Of a stretch of DNA of 64,000 bases, positions 41,673 to 49,866 are shown piece by piece. The DNA is from Thalassospira lucentensis. GTDB taxonomy: Bacteria > Pseudomonadota > Alphaproteobacteria > Rhodospirillales > Thalassospiraceae. The stretch spans positions 62,001 to 126,000 of the forward strand of contig NZ_JAATOV010000003.1 in assembly GCF_011806425.1 (NCBI RefSeq). The letters run 5' to 3'. The notes beneath the pieces were generated by a model. That model saw only the letters and a list, made by a program, of their open reading frames with translations. It made no database searches and was not told where the DNA came from. The translations under genes and the position numbers were made by a program. Numbering within the stretch: the first letter of the stretch is position 1; every line of letters begins with the position of its first letter.

Positions 41673-42155
41673 TTAGCTTTCTGCGCGCAGGTTCTTTTCC
41701 ATTGCGTAATTATGAATGGGTACACCGGCCACTTCAAAGTCGCGGCGTTGAATGACCGTAAATCCACGTTTAAGCAGGAAGCTTTTGGCAAGTTCGCTGG
41801 CTTCGACATAAAGCCGGGTCAGGTTATCTGCGGTGGCCTTGGCTTCGATCGCGTCATAAAGCATTGCGGCAACACCGGTTCCCGCGACATCGGGATCGGC
41901 ATATAGAAATTCGATATGGCCGTCAGATTCCAGATCGCCAAAGGCCAGCACTTTGTCGTTGGTATTTACCGCGACAAAACCGGTGCGCCCATCCCCCATC
42001 ATGTCCGTCAGGCGATCCGCCGTTGGGGTTAGATCCGCCCAAACTGCGACTTGTTCGGGGCTATAGCGAAGCACGCCAAGTTCGGTGACCGCACGGCGGT
42101 AAATCACGCGCATTTGGGCCGCGTCATCGGGTTTGAAAGTACGAATGGTCGTCAT
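41673..42155 (-). CDS. GNAT family N-acetyltransferase
   Basis: ATG at 42155 overlaps the upstream TenA-like stop (ATGA), giving 160 residues: TTIRTFKPDDAAQMRVIYRR at the start, FLYADPDVAGTGVAAMLYDA as the acetyl-CoA region, and YVEASELAKSFLLKRGFTVI at the end. It is translationally coupled to the TenA-like gene, so the two may act together. The acceptor is unknown. Confidence 0.85.
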   Translation of the reverse strand: MTTIRTFKPDDAAQMRVIYRRAVTELGVLRYSPEQVAVWADLTPTADRLTDMMGDGRTGFVAVNTNDKVLAFGDLESDGHIEFLYADPDVAGTGVAAMLYDAIEAKATADNLTRLYVEASELAKSFLLKRGFTVIQRRDFEVAGVPIHNYAMEKNLRAES

Positions 42156-42874
42156 TCTTGTGCAGCCCACGCGGTATCAAAGAACGCGACTTCAAGGGAT
42201 GTGGCCTTGCGGAAATGGTCAAGGCATTGCGCACGTTCATCGGCATTCAAATCAGGCCCATATTGATCAAGCTGGCCATTTAGATACGCAATCACGCTTT
42301 CGAAATATGTGCCGACATGAAGATCAAGCCATTCGTAATACCAAAAATCAGCCGGGCGTTCGGCGATGGCTTTATTCACCCGATCCGCCCAGCCAAGATA
42401 GGTGCCCTCGGCCACGGCCAACACGGCGAGCATATTGGTGTATGACGTGCTTTCGCTGGCATCGCGCATCAGTTGCTTAAATCCCGCAGTGGCAGGCCAG
42501 TCGGCGGGTTGGTTGCGGTCGTCATCGGTGACGCCAAGGGCGCTAAAGCTGCGTTCGAAATAGGTGTTTTCCGCCCCGGTCAGGACCGCCAAAAACTGAC
42601 AACCCGGAATGCGGTCCTTGAGCGTTGGCGCACGAGACACCGCCGCAGCCAAAAGGGCAACGAACCGGTCGATAAAGCGATGATCCTGAATAAGGTAGTT
42701 TTTAAGATTGGCCTGGGGCAGGGCGGCAGCCCCCCATGCATCGGTAAAGGGATGATGCGTGACCCGTTTCCAATCATCGGCAACAGAGGCCTTTAGCCAG
42801 TCGGAAAATGTGCCCGATGGGTTCGTTTCAAGCCAGATCGGAAAGTCATCAAGCGTCGCGGTGAGCGTGTTCAT
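42152..42874 (-). CDS. TenA/thiaminase-II-like protein
   Basis: Start chosen at 42874 (MNTLTATLDDFPIWLE) for 240 residues; earlier starts would add up to 53 residues of poor quality. The all-helical TenA fold is seen in HPFTDAWGAAALPQANLKNYLIQDHRFIDRF and the closing WYYEWLDLHVGTYFESVIAYLN. In place of the usual catalytic-Cys segment it has VLAVAEGTYLGWADR, with a glutamate, as in the cysteine-less TenA_E class. Known members act in salvage of thiamine pyrimidine breakdown products. Confidence 0.78.
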   Translation of the reverse strand: MNTLTATLDDFPIWLETNPSGTFSDWLKASVADDWKRVTHHPFTDAWGAAALPQANLKNYLIQDHRFIDRFVALLAAAVSRAPTLKDRIPGCQFLAVLTGAENTYFERSFSALGVTDDDRNQPADWPATAGFKQLMRDASESTSYTNMLAVLAVAEGTYLGWADRVNKAIAERPADFWYYEWLDLHVGTYFESVIAYLNGQLDQYGPDLNADERAQCLDHFRKATSLEVAFFDTAWAAQE

Positions 42875-43081
42875 GGGGCATGGTTTCCAATTTGAAAATT
42901 TATCCTCTTTTGCCATGAAGACAGACATACGACAAGAATAGCGTCCTGAGGTTTGCCGATTTTTCAACGCGTTAGCGCGCCTGTTCGTGCGCGATATTTT
43001 GATGCTAGATTGCCAAATCGCAATGTAAACCATTATTTCATGATGTAATAATTATAGGATGTTTTAACCCAAGAAATCAGG

Positions 43082-43327
43082 ATGCAAAAAATGAAAAATG
43101 TTGGTGGATTTGATCGTGTGCTTCGACTGGTTGTCGGACTGGTTTTGATCGCCGTGCCGTTTGTGATGGCGGCACCAGAAAGCGGGATTGTTGCATTTGG
43201 TGCATATGGCTGGGTGATGGTGGCGGCGGGTCTTGTGGCGCTGTTAACAGCGGCATTTGGATTTTGCCCGCTTTATCGTGTGCTCGGTGTGCAGACCTGT
43301 TCGGTGCGCAGCAAAACAGCCAACTAA
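43082..43327 (+). CDS. DUF2892 (YgaP-type) inner membrane protein
   Basis: An 81-residue protein with NVGGFDRVLRLVVGLVLIAV, then two membrane segments and GFCPLYRVLGVQTC at the end, the standard DUF2892 pattern. A second ATG nine bases later is an equal start. The next gene on the same strand encodes a rhodanese-like protein, matching the YgaP theme of rhodanese plus this membrane domain. Confidence 0.9.
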   Translation: MQKMKNVGGFDRVLRLVVGLVLIAVPFVMAAPESGIVAFGAYGWVMVAAGLVALLTAAFGFCPLYRVLGVQTCSVRSKTAN

Positions 43328-43588
43328 GCCCGTCCTTAATGATGGTCGTTATCTGCCCCGTCGTGATGTGCTGGACCCGTGATTGGTTTGGCGCGTCGTG
43401 CGGGCAGGGCGGGGGGAAACGTTCAAACCTAAAAATTGATCGTGTTTGACCCTGTTTTCGTTCTGTTTTCTGTTGGTTTTCGTTTCTGGCGGTTGCCATC
43501 GCCGCCAGATAATGGCATCGGTTATTGGTACCGCAATAAAGGGACGGGTGTTTTGCGTCCCATGGCCATGAAGAACGGAAAGACAAAC

Positions 43589-44002
43589 ATGAAACGACTG
43601 AGTGATGAGCTGACCGTATCGCCGCAATTGCCCATTGAGGCCATTGACGAGGTTGCCAAGGAAGGGTTCAAAACCATCATTTGCAATCGCCCCGATAACG
43701 AAGACCCGGGTCAGCCATCCTTTGCGGAAATTGCCGCCAGGGCCGAAAGCAATGGCATGAAAGCGATTTTCCAACCCGTCGCCAGTGGCAATGTTTCCGA
43801 TGCCGACGCCGATGCGTTTGCCGCCAATCTTAAGGCCGCGGAAAAGCCTGTGTTTGCCTATTGCCGCAGTGGAACGCGTTGCACGATCCTGTGGTCCTTG
43901 GCCAGTTCGGGCAGCCTTCCGGTTCAGGATATTATCAAATCAGCATCCGATGCCGGATATGATATGTCGCCCTTGATGGCGCGTATTGCTGCACGCGGTT
44001 GA
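43589..44002 (+). CDS. TIGR01244-type rhodanese/phosphatase-like protein
   Basis: ATG at 43589 (GGAAAGA upstream) gives 137 residues. The N-terminal KRLSDELTVSPQLPIEAIDE and FKTIICNRPDNEDPGQPSF lead to an active loop with Cys92 in YCRSGTRC, which fits the TIGR01244 family (the sulfur-transferase-like half of Blh proteins). Relatives act in sulfide handling. It is 261 bp after the DUF2892 gene. Confidence 0.87.
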   Translation: MKRLSDELTVSPQLPIEAIDEVAKEGFKTIICNRPDNEDPGQPSFAEIAARAESNGMKAIFQPVASGNVSDADADAFAANLKAAEKPVFAYCRSGTRCTILWSLASSGSLPVQDIIKSASDAGYDMSPLMARIAARG

Positions 44003-44376: not shown

Positions 44377-45504
44377 TTGGGCCAAGCTGATGATTGCGGC
44401 GTGATATTTCGATTAGCAGATGACCGGGATATTGATGCCCTGTGTCAGATCGAAAGTGTTTCCTTTGACGTTGATCGGTTGAACCGCCGGGCGTTTAAAC
44501 GCTTTGTCGGCAGTGAAACCGCGCGCCTGTGTGTCGCCGAAATCCACGGCGTGGTTGTTGGCTACGCGGTGGTGATTTTCCGGCGCAATGTGGCGCTGGC
44601 ACGGCTATATTCGGTGGCGGTGGCACCGGATCATCGAAGGATGGGCATTGGGCGTGCGCTTGTTGCACAGGCCGAGGACCTTAGCCTTGATTTTGGGGCA
44701 CCGATTTTGCGTCTTGAAGTCGCACAGGGCAACAAAGATGCCATCGCGCTGTTTCATGGCAAGGGATACCAAGAATTCGCGCTGTATCCCGATTATTATC
44801 CCGATCATTCCGATGCGCTGCGCATGGAGCGGGTTTTGGTCCCCCATGCCATGCGGTTGCCATCCCCGATCCAGTTTTATCACCAGACTTTGCCATTTAC
44901 CTGTGGGCCAGCGTCGTTGATGATGGCGATGAATGCGCTTGATCCATCGGTTGAGATGGACAGAAGCCTTGAGATCGCCCTTTGGCGCGAAGCCACAACG
45001 ATTTTCATGACGTCCGGGCATGGCGGGTGCGGGCCGTTGGGTTTGGCCTTGGCAGCAGATCGGCGGGGCTTCGCGGTTGAGGTTTTGCGCAGCCGTGACG
45101 GCCCGATGTTTGTTGATTCTGTGCGCAAACCCAAAAGCCGGGAAGTGGTCGAACTGGTGCACTATGATTTTGCCCAGCAGATCGAACAGGCCGGTATTCC
45201 CGTGAGTGTCGGGCCGTTTGGTGTGGCGGATATTGAAAACCGGATGCGCGAAGGGCAAATGGCGCTGGTTTTGATCAGTCAGTACCGCATTTACGGCGAT
45301 AAAATTCCCCATTGGGTGGTCGTGTCGGGCTTTGATGACCGGTTTGTGTATGTTACGGACCCCGATATTGGTGATGACCATGATCCGTTTACGGGCAGTG
45401 ATTGCCTGTCCTTTCCGATCCTGCGCCATGAGTTTGATCTGATGGCGCGCTATGGCCGGGATAAATTGCAGGCGGCTGTTTTTGTGCGCAAAAAAGCCGG
45501 GTGA
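44377..45504 (+). CDS. GNAT acetyltransferase fused to a C39-like cysteine peptidase
   Basis: Starts with TTG at 44377, six bases after AAGGTG; a GTG at 44401 is possible. The 375-residue product has a GNAT domain (about 8-155, acetyl-CoA loop RRMGIGRAL at 87-95) and a papain-like C39 domain (about 160-372). The peptidase residues are all present: oxyanion Gln170, Cys176 (TCGPAS), His312 (PHWVVVSG) and Asp328 (VTDPD). It is convergent with the GNAT-RLAN-ATP-grasp gene, 47 bp away. Such pairs were predicted in comparative genomics of ATP-grasp ligases to make and trim peptide modifications. The target is unknown. Confidence 0.85.
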   Translation: MGQADDCGVIFRLADDRDIDALCQIESVSFDVDRLNRRAFKRFVGSETARLCVAEIHGVVVGYAVVIFRRNVALARLYSVAVAPDHRRMGIGRALVAQAEDLSLDFGAPILRLEVAQGNKDAIALFHGKGYQEFALYPDYYPDHSDALRMERVLVPHAMRLPSPIQFYHQTLPFTCGPASLMMAMNALDPSVEMDRSLEIALWREATTIFMTSGHGGCGPLGLALAADRRGFAVEVLRSRDGPMFVDSVRKPKSREVVELVHYDFAQQIEQAGIPVSVGPFGVADIENRMREGQMALVLISQYRIYGDKIPHWVVVSGFDDRFVYVTDPDIGDDHDPFTGSDCLSFPILRHEFDLMARYGRDKLQAAVFVRKKAG

Positions 45505-45551
45505 TCATGGTGTTGATCCCCGGCCTTTGATCTCATGTGGTTGTTGCGCGT

Positions 45552-47531
45552 TTACGGGCGGGCGATCTTGCCCAGAAGGTGGGCGATGATGCGCCGGTAA
45601 AGCTCCATCCCCAGAACGGCATCTTCGACGCCGCCATCGATGTTGGGGTTGTCATTCACCTCGATCACCATCGGGCCTTGTGGGGTTTGTTTCATATCCA
45701 CACCATAAAGCCCGTCGCCCATCAATCGTGCCGCGGCAAGGGCGGTTGTCACGATGTCTTCGGGGGCGTCTTCGATGGCGACGGTTTCAAATCCGCCTTC
45801 TTCGTAACTTTTGCCGTCATCTTCGTGTTTGACGATCTGCCAGTGGCCCGGTGCCATGAAATAGCGGCTGGCAAAGATGGCTTCGCCGCCCAAAACCCCA
45901 ATGCGCCAATCAAACGTGGTTTCGACATATTCCTGAATGACCAGCAATTCCGAGTTTTTAAACATCTCGGTGGCGACTTCGGACAGATGTTGCGGTGATT
46001 TGACCTTGCGCACACCGCGTGAGAAGCAGCCGTCAGGTACCTTAAGGACCGACGGGAAGCTAAATTGTTCGCCGATTTCACCAATGCGGCGTTTATCAAA
46101 AATCGCACTTTTGGGCGCCGGAATGCGGTGGGTGCGCAGCAATTCAGCCAGATAGACCTTGTTGGTACAACGCAGCATCGAGTCCGGGTCGTCAATCACC
46201 GGAATGCCTTCCTTTACCGCCCGTTTGGCAAAGCGATAGGTGTGATGATCAAGGGCGGTGGTTTCGCGGATCAACAGCGCATCAAATTCCGAAAGATGAT
46301 GGAAATCCTTTGCCGTGATCAGTTCGGCACGCGCGCCAAGGTCGGCGGCGGCCTGAACGAAAAGGGCAAGGGCGTCTTTGTCTGACGGTGGCATGACTTC
46401 ATCGGGATCGTGCAAGATCGCGACCAAGGCGGTTGGTTGGGTGACGTTGCCCTGTTTGCGGACACGGCCGCGCAAATAGGCCCGCAAGGCGGCTTCAAAC
46501 TCCGTGATGTTTTCGGTGCCGAGCTGGCTTAGCGACGGGGCTTCGATTTCGCGCAAGGATACTTTGCCGTCCTTGTTGGTCAGATGCAGGCGCAGGATCG
46601 GGCAGCGGAACTGATCAAATACCCGTTGGGCGATGTGACGAAACCGTTTGTCGTGGCTGCGGCCAAAATAGATATCAACGTGGGTTGGCTGATCGCCGGG
46701 TTTTGTCAGGGCGTCGACAATTTGTGGGCTAAGATCAAGACGGGCGGCCTTTTGCAGGCGTTTCCAGTTGAGATCGAGCAAGACGTCGGCCTCGGGGATG
46801 ACGCGTTCGGCCCGTGCGGCGGCCAGCAGGCTGCAATAATAGCCGCGCGACAAATATTCGTAAGACCGGCACAGGTTAATCACACGCCGATTACGTACCC
46901 CATGATCCAGTGCAAGGTAATCACGCACCCGCATGACGCGCGCACCCGATACCGCAAAGGGCAGGTCAGACAATCGATCAACCAAAATAAGCGGCGCGCC
47001 AGTTGAAACCGCAGGCGATTTTTCGGCAATCACATCATAAAGATCATGCTGCAATCGGATGCCATCGCCCCCATCTTCATAATATCCGGGCAGGTCGGAA
47101 ACTTTTTGGTATCCGTGGCGTTCGTATAATGCACGTGCCGTATCATTTTCGATGCGGACTTCAAGGCGGATGCGATGGCATCCGGCGTCGATGGCAAAGT
47201 TTTCCAACCCGGCCAGAAGTTGCGTGCCAAGGCCAATGCCGCGCCATTCGTTTGAAATTGCGAGAGAATAAATTCGTGCCGTTACCGTATTTTCGCGCAA
47301 CAACAATAATCCATAGCCGACCACGTTGGGATGATCGCTATCCCCGGCATCGGCGACCAAAAGGCGGGCCGAGCTGCCGCGCAGAAACCGCAAAAAGGAT
47401 GCGCGCGAAATGCGATCACTTGTGAAATTGTTTGTTTCAAGCGCGCAAAGCCCATCGATATCGGCGGGCATGGCATTGCGAAGAATAACGGCATTGGACT
47501 GGGTCGAAGCCACGTGGTGGTTCTCCTGCAA
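45552..47531 (-). CDS. GNAT-RLAN-RimK-like ATP-grasp ligase
   Basis: A 659-residue three-part protein. A GNAT domain (about 15-165, EWRGIGLGTQLLAG) resembles the one in the convergent C39 gene. A RimK-like N-terminal (RLAN) domain follows (about 180-335, with VINLCRSYEYLSRGYYCSLL), then an ATP-grasp domain (about 370-655: VPDGCFSRGVRKVK, LLVIQEYVETTFDWRIGVLG and the metal site VIEVNDNPNIDGG near 625-637). ATP-grasp enzymes of the RimK type form peptide bonds between amino acids and a carboxylate. Whether the acceptor is a protein or a small molecule cannot be told. Confidence 0.87.
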   Translation of the reverse strand: MQENHHVASTQSNAVILRNAMPADIDGLCALETNNFTSDRISRASFLRFLRGSSARLLVADAGDSDHPNVVGYGLLLLRENTVTARIYSLAISNEWRGIGLGTQLLAGLENFAIDAGCHRIRLEVRIENDTARALYERHGYQKVSDLPGYYEDGGDGIRLQHDLYDVIAEKSPAVSTGAPLILVDRLSDLPFAVSGARVMRVRDYLALDHGVRNRRVINLCRSYEYLSRGYYCSLLAAARAERVIPEADVLLDLNWKRLQKAARLDLSPQIVDALTKPGDQPTHVDIYFGRSHDKRFRHIAQRVFDQFRCPILRLHLTNKDGKVSLREIEAPSLSQLGTENITEFEAALRAYLRGRVRKQGNVTQPTALVAILHDPDEVMPPSDKDALALFVQAAADLGARAELITAKDFHHLSEFDALLIRETTALDHHTYRFAKRAVKEGIPVIDDPDSMLRCTNKVYLAELLRTHRIPAPKSAIFDKRRIGEIGEQFSFPSVLKVPDGCFSRGVRKVKSPQHLSEVATEMFKNSELLVIQEYVETTFDWRIGVLGGEAIFASRYFMAPGHWQIVKHEDDGKSYEEGGFETVAIEDAPEDIVTTALAAARLMGDGLYGVDMKQTPQGPMVIEVNDNPNIDGGVEDAVLGMELYRRIIAHLLGKIARP

Positions 47532-47832
47532 ATGGGGGCAGCTTATGAAGTGTACTCAACCCGCGGTACGCTTAATATGTTTTTCTGACAAGTGCGTTTA
47601 CGGTTCATAGCCATGCCATTTTTACATGCGATTTGGCATGAAGGGTCTTCTACCTGTACAGTCGTTTAAAGCAGGGTGTTTTCAGATATCTGATTTAAAA
47701 ATTGCACAAATACCAAACTGCGATATGACCATATAAGATTGAACATAACAGATCGAAAATCGATCACCATAAAACCGCGCGAAAAGCCGGTTGGGCCGCA
47801 GCAAAAGGATACCACGTTTTTTGACCGACTAC
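47532..47832. other. 301-bp divergent promoter region between the ATP-grasp gene and tamA
   Basis: AT-rich, no gene or clear palindrome seen. AAAAGGAT at 47802-47809 is the only ribosome-site-like sequence before tamA. Confidence 0.5.
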
Positions 47833-49866
47833 ATGTTCCGCAACTTCCGGTGTAATCGCCGACGCGCAGCATTCATCCCGCTTTTGATGGCGGGCACGTT
47901 GCTTGCGGGCTGTTCGTCAGATGACGGCATATCGGGCTTTGGGTTTGGTTCCGATGGCGCGGTACAGCATAATGATTTGCGCACCACGGTTCCCTATAGT
48001 GTGGAACTGACCGGGATTGATCCGCATGAAGAAAAACTGATCGAAAGCCTGAACGAAACAAGCACCGCACGCAGGTTGCAATCCCAACCGCCCGGATCAC
48101 GCGCAGGCCTGCAACGCCGTGCCGAAGATGATCTTGAACGGTTTCAGGCGGTGTTGCGGTCAAACGGGTTTTATGACGCCGAAATCACCTTTGATATCGA
48201 AGAAAAAGAGGCTTCCGGAACCGCACAAGTGTCTGATGACGGTAGCGATACCGATAATGACGCCGATAGCGATGCAGATACCAAGTCCAACACCGACACT
48301 GGCAATTCCGATACGGATGCCGCGGACGGTGATCAGGAAAATAGCGATACCGTGGCGGGATCAGATGCCCCCAAACCGGTTGTCCTGACCTATCATGTTG
48401 ATCCGGGAACGCCGTATTTGCTTGATGGGGTGACGTTTAAAACCACCTATACTGATAAGGTGGTCGAGCGCGCGGCAACGGATGCGGAGCTTGAACAAAT
48501 TCATTTGGAAATCGGGCAGCGTGCGCGTGCAAACCCGATCATTTTGGCCGAACAATTTGGTGTGGATGTGCTGCGCCAAGATGGTTATCCGTTGGCCAAG
48601 GCCGGGGATCGCAGGGTGGTTGCCAATACGGCCGAAAAGACCCTGTCGGTGACATATGCATTTGATGCTGGCGCACAGGCCAATTTTGGCGCGGTCGAGG
48701 TAAAAGGGGCCGAGGAAGTCGACCCTGATTTTATTGCCGGATATCGCAGCTGGGGCCCGGGGCAAAAATTCAATCCCGATGAAATCAGAACCACGCGTCA
48801 GGATTTGGCAAAATCGAACCTGTTTGACAGTGTGGTGGTAAAGCCAGTTGGACCGGTTGGTGAAACCGGTGAAGTGCCCATCGAAATCACCGTGGTCGAG
48901 CGCAAGCATCGTTCTGTCGGGGGCGGGGTGAACTTTTCGACCGCCGATGGTCCGGGTGCGAATGCGTTTTGGGAACACCGCAACCTGTTTGGGCGGGGCG
49001 AGAAACTGCGCCTTGGCATTGAGGCATCGGGCCTTGAGCAGGGGTTAACTGCCGAGTTCCGTAAGCCGCAATTTTTGCGTCGGCGTCAGGCGCTTGTCGC
49101 GGAAAGTAACGCCAAAAACCATGATACGGATGCCTATCAGGGGACATTGTTCGATAACTTTGTCGGGGTTGAACGCAAACTTGGTGAAAACTGGTCGGGC
49201 ACCTTTGGGGTGACGGCGGAATATTCCGACCTGACCGGGACAGATTCCCCCAACGAGCAGTTTTATCTGGGCGGTTTGCGCGGCATTTTAAAACACGACA
49301 ATACGGATAATCCCCTTGATCCCACAGAAGGCAACCGTTTTGAAATCAATGTGTCGCCCTATGTCGGCCTGAATGATTCCAGCACAAGCTTTACGTCTGT
49401 ATCGCTGAGCGGGTCGCAATATCTTTCGATTGATGATGACGGTGATTACGTCATGGCGGCGCGTGCGCGGACCGGGACGATCATTGGTGAAGAGCGCGGC
49501 AATTTGCCATCAAACAAACGGTTCTATTCCGGCGGTGGTGGATCGATCCGTGGGTATGAATACCAAAAGGTCGGGCCACTGGCCGAGGACGGTGATCCAC
49601 TTGGTGGGCGGTCGGTCTTGGAAGTCGGGTTTGAATTCCGTGCCCGCATTACCGAAAGTTTCGGCATCGTGCCCTTTATCGAAGGGGGCAACGTATATGA
49701 ACGCAGTGAGCCCGGCGATATTTCATTGCTGTGGGCGACCGGGCTTGGTTTCCGGTACTACACGGCCGTGGGGCCGCTGCGTTTTGATATCGCCGTACCG
49801 CTTGATAAACGTGAAAATGTTGATGACGACTATCAGTTCTATATCAGTCTGGGGCAGGCGTTTTGA
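47833..49866 (+). CDS. tamA: TamA-like outer-membrane assembly protein
   Basis: ATG at 47833 gives 677 residues; in-frame TTG codons at 47791 and 47821 are alternatives. The signal ends in LLAGC with Cys27, a possible lipobox, unusual for TamA. POTRA-like domains follow (about 45-320), then a 16-strand BamA/TamA barrel (about 340-677) with RRFYSGGGGSIRGYEYQKVG-type loop (SNKRFYSGGGGSIRGYEYQK). Residues 135-178 are an Asp/Ser/Thr/Asn low-complexity insert within the POTRA region. With TamB, whose gene overlaps, it helps place proteins or lipids in the outer membrane. Confidence 0.92.
   Translation: MFRNFRCNRRRAAFIPLLMAGTLLAGCSSDDGISGFGFGSDGAVQHNDLRTTVPYSVELTGIDPHEEKLIESLNETSTARRLQSQPPGSRAGLQRRAEDDLERFQAVLRSNGFYDAEITFDIEEKEASGTAQVSDDGSDTDNDADSDADTKSNTDTGNSDTDAADGDQENSDTVAGSDAPKPVVLTYHVDPGTPYLLDGVTFKTTYTDKVVERAATDAELEQIHLEIGQRARANPIILAEQFGVDVLRQDGYPLAKAGDRRVVANTAEKTLSVTYAFDAGAQANFGAVEVKGAEEVDPDFIAGYRSWGPGQKFNPDEIRTTRQDLAKSNLFDSVVVKPVGPVGETGEVPIEITVVERKHRSVGGGVNFSTADGPGANAFWEHRNLFGRGEKLRLGIEASGLEQGLTAEFRKPQFLRRRQALVAESNAKNHDTDAYQGTLFDNFVGVERKLGENWSGTFGVTAEYSDLTGTDSPNEQFYLGGLRGILKHDNTDNPLDPTEGNRFEINVSPYVGLNDSSTSFTSVSLSGSQYLSIDDDGDYVMAARARTGTIIGEERGNLPSNKRFYSGGGGSIRGYEYQKVGPLAEDGDPLGGRSVLEVGFEFRARITESFGIVPFIEGGNVYERSEPGDISLLWATGLGFRYYTAVGPLRFDIAVPLDKRENVDDDYQFYISLGQAF

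Follow-up and report, generated by a model that had tools for sequence, protein, structure and literature searches.

We analysed a 64,000-nucleotide stretch of Thalassospira lucentensis DNA (contig NZ_JAATOV010000003.1, positions 62,001 to 126,000), referred to here as the window, and focus on a pair of convergent genes at window positions 44377-47531. One encodes a GNAT acetyltransferase domain fused to a papain-like DUF3335 domain, the other a GNAT domain fused to an RLAN domain and a RimK-like ATP-grasp ligase domain. Comparison across genomes identifies a GNAT as the steadier partner of this ligase family, the DUF3335 peptidase being more often missing. We tentatively propose, allowing the idea slightly less than an even chance, that the pair constitutes a two-gene module making, acetylating and hydrolysing a small N-acylated oligopeptide, which would probably be assembled from glutamate or some other acidic or polar residue.

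Distribution of the ligase and its partners

The first-pass annotation had let its case depend on the two genes occurring together across genomes, and this is what profile matches in 299 Pseudomonadota genomes of 154 genera show: RLAN is found in 55 genomes and DUF3335 in 46, with 45 genomes holding both (Fisher p 2e-42, kinship uncorrected). Counted by genus, RLAN occurs in 31, DUF3335 in 25 and both in 24 of the 154 (p 8e-21). The two matches lie less than 2 kb apart in 43 of the 45 genomes holding both, arranged in the same direction with DUF3335 first in 26, in the same direction with RLAN first in three, divergently in 13 and convergently in one, i.e. the genome studied here. In G193 the two genes sit on separate contigs, and in G006 they are 2.1 Mb apart. 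RLAN without DUF3335 was observed in ten genomes and DUF3335 without RLAN in one. All 29 genomes returned by the family search, belonging to one genus, hold both genes, 28 of them convergently and one on different contigs.

The partners of the ligase were ranked at 80 named loci, the top 80 when all 587 confirmed matches are ordered by likeness to the window ligase. A RimI/Ard1-type GNAT is present at 70 of these: 46 loci combine a GNAT-DUF3335 gene with a plain ligase, seven, all from Thalassospira, a GNAT-DUF3335 gene with a GNAT-ligase fusion, 15 an unfused GNAT with a plain ligase, and two have a GNAT-ligase fusion alone (Cohaesibacter and one metagenome-assembled genome (MAG) labelled archaeal), leaving ten without such a GNAT. 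At 17 of the 80 loci a GNAT is present with no DUF3335 in the flank of up to 10 kb. By these counts the ligase can manage without DUF3335, and less often without a GNAT. Among the 35 wide neighbourhoods, drawn from the 58 ligase places of the 299-genome search, 33 hold a GNAT of the same family; of the two exceptions, one is cut by a contig end inside the DUF3335 gene (L100) and the other has its GNAT-DUF3335 gene elsewhere in that genome, on a different contig (L084). The usual layout is a single GNAT, either on the peptidase or standing alone. The paired acetyltransferases described in the first-pass annotation are real in the window, in which both proteins carry a GNAT, but they are not a general feature, the double fusion having been observed in Thalassospira alone, at seven of the 80 named loci.

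The seven closest named ligase loci are all from Thalassospira (82-88% identity over the ligase), and the next relative shows 54% identity. An Aeromonas ligase with 32% identity to the window ligase also has an adjoining GNAT gene. Two records deserve a comment on their labels. The GNAT-RLAN-ATP-grasp fusion at L178:559-2505, 48% identical to the window ligase, lies on a contig labelled Candidatus Thermoplasmatota, which is possibly misbinned bacterial DNA. The Aeromonas caviae record L268 (NZ_AP026896.1) is catalogued as a plasmid, and its size of 4.9 Mb suggests a chromosome.

Domains, active sites and selection

Both open reading frames were found in place and convergent, with their stop codons 47 nt apart, and the domain assignments of the first-pass annotation were borne out by Pfam matches above the gathering scores. 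The plus-strand protein consists of a GNAT domain (Acetyltransf_1, 1.2e-16) followed by DUF3335, 'Peptidase_C39 like' (PF11814, 1.6e-81; 273.1 bits against a gathering score of 25). The minus-strand protein comprises GNAT (6.2e-16), RLAN (PF14401, 2.6e-37; 128.2 bits against 25) and RimK ATP-grasp (PF08443, 8.4e-10; 39 bits against 21).

The active sites, described earlier as intact, are conserved among relatives of both proteins. DUF3335 has the papain-like Gln/Cys/His/Asp set, of which Gln170, Cys176 and His312 are unchanged in 24 aligned GNAT-DUF3335 proteins and likewise in a second set of 44, and position 328 holds Asp or Glu throughout the first set, with Asp328 conserved at 90% or more in the second; a GxGGC motif at residues 214-218 is conserved as well. 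In the ATP-grasp domain, K497, D541, R543, D612, K614, E624, N626 and N628 are unchanged in 49 ligases and also in all 63 Thalassospira rows, which include genome repeats and part-length sequences. Both proteins are under purifying selection within the genus: the ratio of nonsynonymous to synonymous substitution rates (dN/dS) is 0.09-0.17 for the GNAT-DUF3335 protein in the nine Thalassospira comparisons printed, and its medians for the ligase are 0.084 in the RLAN plus ATP-grasp part and 0.173 in the GNAT (34 comparisons, some of them same-strain repeats).

The nearest folds of the ATP-grasp domain are LysX (Z 29.1, 2.2 Å over 265 residues), ArgX (Z 28.3) and RimK (Z 27.4). Among the fold-search rows shown, the matched regions of the two proteins are the GNAT and ATP-grasp domains. 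The ligase scores 81.7 bits on the RimK family model (TIGR00768), under the cut-off of 143.4 and outside the RimK family, and the host genome encodes a separate canonical RimK with 265.5 bits on the same model. Scores of 20.4 and 17.4 bits against a cut-off of 569 likewise place the two proteins outside the N-acetylglutaminylglutamine (NAGGN) synthetase family (TIGR03103).

At the named loci a GNAT is fused ahead of DUF3335 in all 53 DUF3335 genes, with the two profile matches 4-13 residues apart. Four DUF3335 genes not near an RLAN gene were scanned as well (L093:6136-7260, L093:15186-16394, L094:7748-8965 and L095:7614-8318); no GNAT could be recognised in three of them, a weak match being present in one, and three of the four have extra N-terminal sequence.

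The two GNAT domains

Both GNAT domains have the N-terminal acetyltransferase fold of the Ard1/RimI type. Comparisons with Foldseek and VIA-align place both nearest to archaeal Ard1 and RimI, with Ard1 at Z 22.9 (1.6 Å over 150) and RimI at Z 22.3 (2.1 Å over 148) for the GNAT of the DUF3335 protein and Ard1 at Z 22.7 (1.5 Å over 145 residues) for the ligase GNAT. Their scores on the RimI equivalog model (TIGR01575), 72.1 and 73.8 bits, stay below the cut-off of 86.4. In a quick tree the GNATs of the system separate from six RimI or RimI-like rows (support of 96 in the Shimodaira-Hasegawa-like approximate likelihood ratio test, SH-aLRT), and in five other genomes they rank next on the RimI model after a full RimI. 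Such GNAT proteins may be mislabelled RimI by automatic annotation; one relative, in G058, exceeds the RimI cut-off (87.4 against 86.4 bits). Asp33, Arg76 and Tyr78 are each retained in 59 of 60 system GNATs; Arg76 and Tyr78 occur in none of the six RimI rows, and Asp at position 33 in none of the four letters printed for them. The GNAT of the DUF3335 protein has an R87xxG90xG92 sequence, which we take to be the acetyl-CoA motif.

Phe126 of the DUF3335 protein and Tyr136 of the ligase occupy the position of the Tyr thought to be the general acid in RimI. In counts that include both window proteins and are uncorrected for kinship, this position holds a residue other than Tyr in 19 of 54 DUF3335-linked GNATs (18 Phe and one Val), the window protein among them, and in just one of 25 ligase-linked GNATs. 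Within Thalassospira the DUF3335 side has Phe in 28 rows and Tyr in eight, and the ligase side has Tyr in all 36 rows reaching the position (same-strain repeats included on both sides). This uneven loss hints at a division of labour between the two GNATs. As several loci with Phe at this position have no second GNAT, Phe does not necessarily mark an idle domain.

The two domains had been described as related, and the quick tree agrees in placing both in one RimI-like group, within which they land in different sub-groups. In approximately unbiased (AU) tests, run with the long rows L229 and L190 removed, the placement of the window GNATs as sisters is not rejected (p 0.70), and a tandem duplication may be their origin; trees in which the DUF3335-linked and the ligase-linked GNATs each form one clade are acceptable too (p 0.69 and 0.72).

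Loci without the GNAT

Four of the ten named loci without the GNAT carry a C39-type peptidase, a member of the glutamate-amine ligase family GCS2 and/or an N-formylglutamate amidohydrolase. A different C39-type peptidase, without a GNAT, adjoins the ligase at L203, L197 and L194, GCS2 is present at L203, L194 and L221, and the amidohydrolase at L203 and L221. At L203:9270-13411 the C39-type peptidase, RLAN ligase, GCS2 and N-formylglutamate amidohydrolase are encoded by four adjoining or overlapping genes. This set resembles a further type of module formed around this ligase family, and on a plasmid of Legionella adelaidensis the ligase, a gene of the glutamate-cysteine ligase family and an amidohydrolase are consecutive. 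Of the remaining six loci, three (L225, L226 and L230) are, by their coordinates, cut by contig ends, L196 carries a GNAT from a different family, and the scanned neighbours of L193 and L219 include no recognised partner. GCS2 acylates an amine, as a GNAT does, and a general recipe may therefore consist of an amine acylator, an RLAN ligase and a hydrolase; such a set was reportedly described in the 2009 survey of amidoligases.

Two further families recur around the ligase. DUF2817 was found in 14 and DUF155 (RMND1-like) in ten of 120 fetched neighbourhoods, five of which are without a ligase. By genus, and uncorrected for phylogeny, DUF2817 is accompanied by RLAN in 12 of 26 genera (p 8e-4; full-length matches only, any match being present in 40) and DUF155 in 11 of 17 (p 2e-5). 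Both were rejected as core parts of the system, the genome of the window having neither.

A putative peptide module and competing explanations

The domains, the conserved catalytic residues, the purifying selection and the close, recurrent linkage of the ligase with GNAT and peptidase are read directly from the sequences; all reactions and their order, the amino acids used and the function of the product, which might be a store, an osmolyte or a signal, are what we infer from them. In the model we propose, the ATP-grasp domain would use ATP and metal to convert a carboxylate into an acyl phosphate and then couple this to the amine of the next amino acid, with RLAN assisting the choice of acceptor. 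The RimI-like GNAT would acetylate the free alpha-amine of the starter or the product, resulting in a blocked peptide, which the DUF3335 cysteine hydrolase would cut for reclaiming, and the GNAT on the DUF3335 protein would either acetylate or merely recognise the blocked N-terminus. We count in favour of this model the nearest folds of the GNATs, i.e. Ard1 and RimI, which acetylate N-terminal amines, those of the ATP-grasp domain, i.e. LysX, ArgX and RimK, all of them amino-acid ligases, and the ligases of Thalassospira, of Cohaesibacter and of one MAG labelled archaeal, to which a GNAT is fused directly. The presence of GCS2 and amidohydrolase at the variant loci points towards small peptides of the glutamate type.

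Several observations weigh against this proposal. LysX, ArgX and RimK act on protein acceptors, LysX and ArgX using the carrier protein LysW, so that a protein target would fit no less well than a small one; the fold-match entries are described with LysW (3vpb, 5k2m) and RpsF. Ard1/RimI-type GNATs, too, usually act on proteins. The counts of the 80 loci lean to near relatives, as these loci were ranked by likeness to the window ligase, and the GNAT profile was made from DUF3335-linked GNATs. No such GNAT was seen in a stretch of up to 5 kb on each side of the ligases of Pseudomonas aeruginosa (L269) and Legionella (L270). The 17 loci with a GNAT and no DUF3335 imply that hydrolysis need not be local. 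GCS2, present in three, and the N-formylglutamate amidohydrolase, present in two of the 80 named loci, are a minority, and this set could be a different pathway merely sharing the ligase family. We know of no product, substrate or phenotype of the system, and none was recognised in our literature search, which also yielded no recognisable experimental work on the RLAN ligase or the DUF3335 family. The portions available of PMC8939145, PMC4431377, PMC2922099 and PMC7824862 do not name the ligase/peptidase pair.

The first-pass annotation had read the pair as a self-contained cycle in which the ligase would extend the end of a protein, a GNAT would acetylate the protein or the tag and DUF3335 would trim the tag. 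We regard this as possible but rather unlikely and do not favour it. The ATP-grasp domain is indeed closest to LysX, ArgX and RimK, which take protein acceptors, and DUF2817, present in some lineages (14 of the 120 neighbourhoods) and with one member weakly matching the M14 and AstE/AspA models, would suit a C-terminal trimming enzyme. A parallel is provided by RimB, which removes glutamates added by RimK according to the part of PMC12239564 available. The DUF3335 peptidase may remove what the ligase adds, but its closest PDB sequence matches, near chance throughout, include an acyltransferase (BtrH) as well as a protease. However, no candidate protein was recognised at the locus, where open reading frames below 80 amino acids were outside the listing, and the GCS2 and N-formylglutamate amidohydrolase of the variant GNAT-less loci are by family small-molecule enzymes. 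A canonical RimK is encoded elsewhere in the genome, so that ribosomal protein S6 is not an obvious target and is not favoured.

The invariable order of GNAT before DUF3335 in 53 of 53 genes, together with the N-terminal-acetyltransferase fold of the GNAT, would also fit a two-step enzyme which removes one residue or a few from the N-terminus and then acetylates the new amine, as the separate enzymes ACTMAP and NAA80 do on animal actin; the ligase would act on the other end of the same substrate or make the peptide that is cut. The available portion of the classification in PMC10318531 places C19orf54 (ACTMAP) in papain-like cluster I and treats DUF3335 among the papain-like families, but the relation of the two holds only at the level of this broad cluster. 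Moreover, the DUF3335-linked GNATs without the Tyr, that of the window included, may not acetylate, and DUF3335 copies distant from RLAN can be without a recognisable GNAT (three of the four scanned). We regard such trimming and capping as distinctly unlikely. A wider version, drawn by analogy, is the editing of termini in bacteria, with the GNAT-DUF3335 protein trimming and re-acetylating the N-terminus and the GNAT-RLAN-ATP-grasp protein extending and capping the same peptide or protein. We consider it quite unlikely. Under this analogy the uneven loss of the active-site Tyr (19 of 54 against one of 25) would speak for specialised GNATs, and suggests that of the ligase serving acetylation and that of the peptidase partly recognition.

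DUF3335 might instead build the product as an acyltransferase or amidase, like BtrH in the synthesis of butirosin or phytochelatin synthase with glutathione, which appears very improbable. Its closest PDB sequence matches include a double-glycine protease (E 0.01) and the N-terminal domain of BtrH (E 0.022), and BtrH_N is placed near C39 in the 2023 classification (PMC10318531, available in part). Both profile matches are near chance, though, and no carrier protein was seen among the five neighbouring proteins scanned.

Relation to described systems

Iyer, Abhiman, Burroughs and Aravind reportedly paired RLAN ATP-grasp ligases with GNAT-DUF3335 proteins in 2009. Compared with that pairing, the domains are the same, but the window ligase additionally carries a GNAT, and the present counts rank the GNAT and not the peptidase as the steadier partner. 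NAGGN synthetase, itself a GNAT fused to an ATP-grasp domain, resembles the window ligase in having both in one chain, whereas on its model only the GNAT part matches, and weakly (17-20 bits against 569). LysX and ArgX resemble the window ligase as the nearest folds of its ATP-grasp part. The accessible text of PMC10318531 describes DUF3335 as frequently fused to GNAT and cites the 2009 survey for it. RimK-RimB, which acts on S6 with poly-glutamate (PMC12239564, seen as an excerpt), shares a RimK-type ATP-grasp enzyme and a peptidase with the window system; the latter adds RLAN and a GNAT partner, has a papain-like instead of an aspartic peptidase, and its ligase stays under the RimK cut-off. 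ACTMAP and NAA80, whose steps in the N-terminal maturation of actin are described in the available part of PMC11465159, likewise combine a papain-like protease with an N-terminal acetyltransferase but are separate animal enzymes acting on actin, with no ligase. The present analysis contributes the GNAT-RLAN-ATP-grasp fusion facing a GNAT-DUF3335 fusion, the counts by which the GNAT is a steadier partner than the peptidase, the loci that lack this GNAT and hold GCS2 and amidohydrolase, and the unequal frequency with which the active-site Tyr is lost on the two sides.

The ligase family is present in 55 of the 299 sampled Pseudomonadota genomes with conserved active sites. If the product is an N-acetylated peptide, a pool of peptides or a signal has gone unrecognised in many bacteria, and if protein ends are edited, this would be a new reversible protein modification. 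The ranking of partners suggests acetylated peptides as the first place to look and makes the GNAT, not the peptidase, the main helper, and the double fusion of Thalassospira, which packs the whole set into two proteins, should make reconstitution in vitro simple.

An anti-phage role was considered too. Neither protein has a defence-protein match at E 0.001 in PADLOC-DB, a library of described systems only. The ligase search of 50,697 phage records gave 15 matches, none covering 80% of the query, and the ten shown cover the ATP-grasp half only, with 23-24% identity.

Locus layout and minor observations

Table 1. Positions of the two genes, their domains and the gap between them in the window; pLDDT, predicted local distance difference test
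Feature	Position	Strand	Description
GNAT-DUF3335 protein	44377..45504	+	375 aa, TTG start; AlphaFold2 model, mean pLDDT 89.5
GNAT domain of GNAT-DUF3335	44389..44847	+	about residues 5-157, RimI/Ard1 type; Y140/Y141; Phe126
DUF3335 papain-like domain	44872..45486	+	residues 166-370; Gln170, Cys176 (44902-44904), His312, Asp328
Intergenic gap	45505..45551		47 nt separating both stop codons
GNAT-RLAN-ATP-grasp ligase	45552..47531	-	659 aa counted from TTG 47531; AlphaFold2 model, mean pLDDT 88.4
ATP-grasp ligase domain	45555..46430	-	residues 368-659; D612, E624, N626, EVNDNP motif intact
RLAN domain	46491..46925	-	residues 203-347, conserved GYYCSLLAEAR-type motif
GNAT domain of ligase	47031..47495	-	residues 13-167, RimI/Ard1 type, Tyr136 retained

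The ligase probably starts at GTG 47513 rather than at TTG 47531, with AGGAG nine bases ahead of the GTG. No terminator-like site was called within the 47-nt gap.

The Pseudomonas aeruginosa ligase at L269, which has no GNAT or DUF3335 within 5 kb, has a glutamate/aspartate ATP-binding cassette transporter about 2-5 kb away. PA1345, probably the RLAN ligase of its Pseudomonas species, is tabulated among genes under Cpx control and annotated there as hypothetical and ATP-binding (PMC12802237, available in part), which is too thin a lead to use.

DUF155 adjoins the ligase or GNAT-DUF3335 gene, or lies not far from one of them, at L069, L071, L073, L086, L091, L100, L181, L189, L215 and L224, several of which also hold DUF2817. 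The neighbours of the pair in the window (42152-44002 and 47791-49866) comprise, on the 42152-44002 side, a TenA/PQQC-family gene on the minus strand, a YgaP-like membrane protein and a plus-strand TIGR01244-family sulfur transferase and, on the other side, an Omp85/TamA-like gene at 47791, divergent from the ligase.

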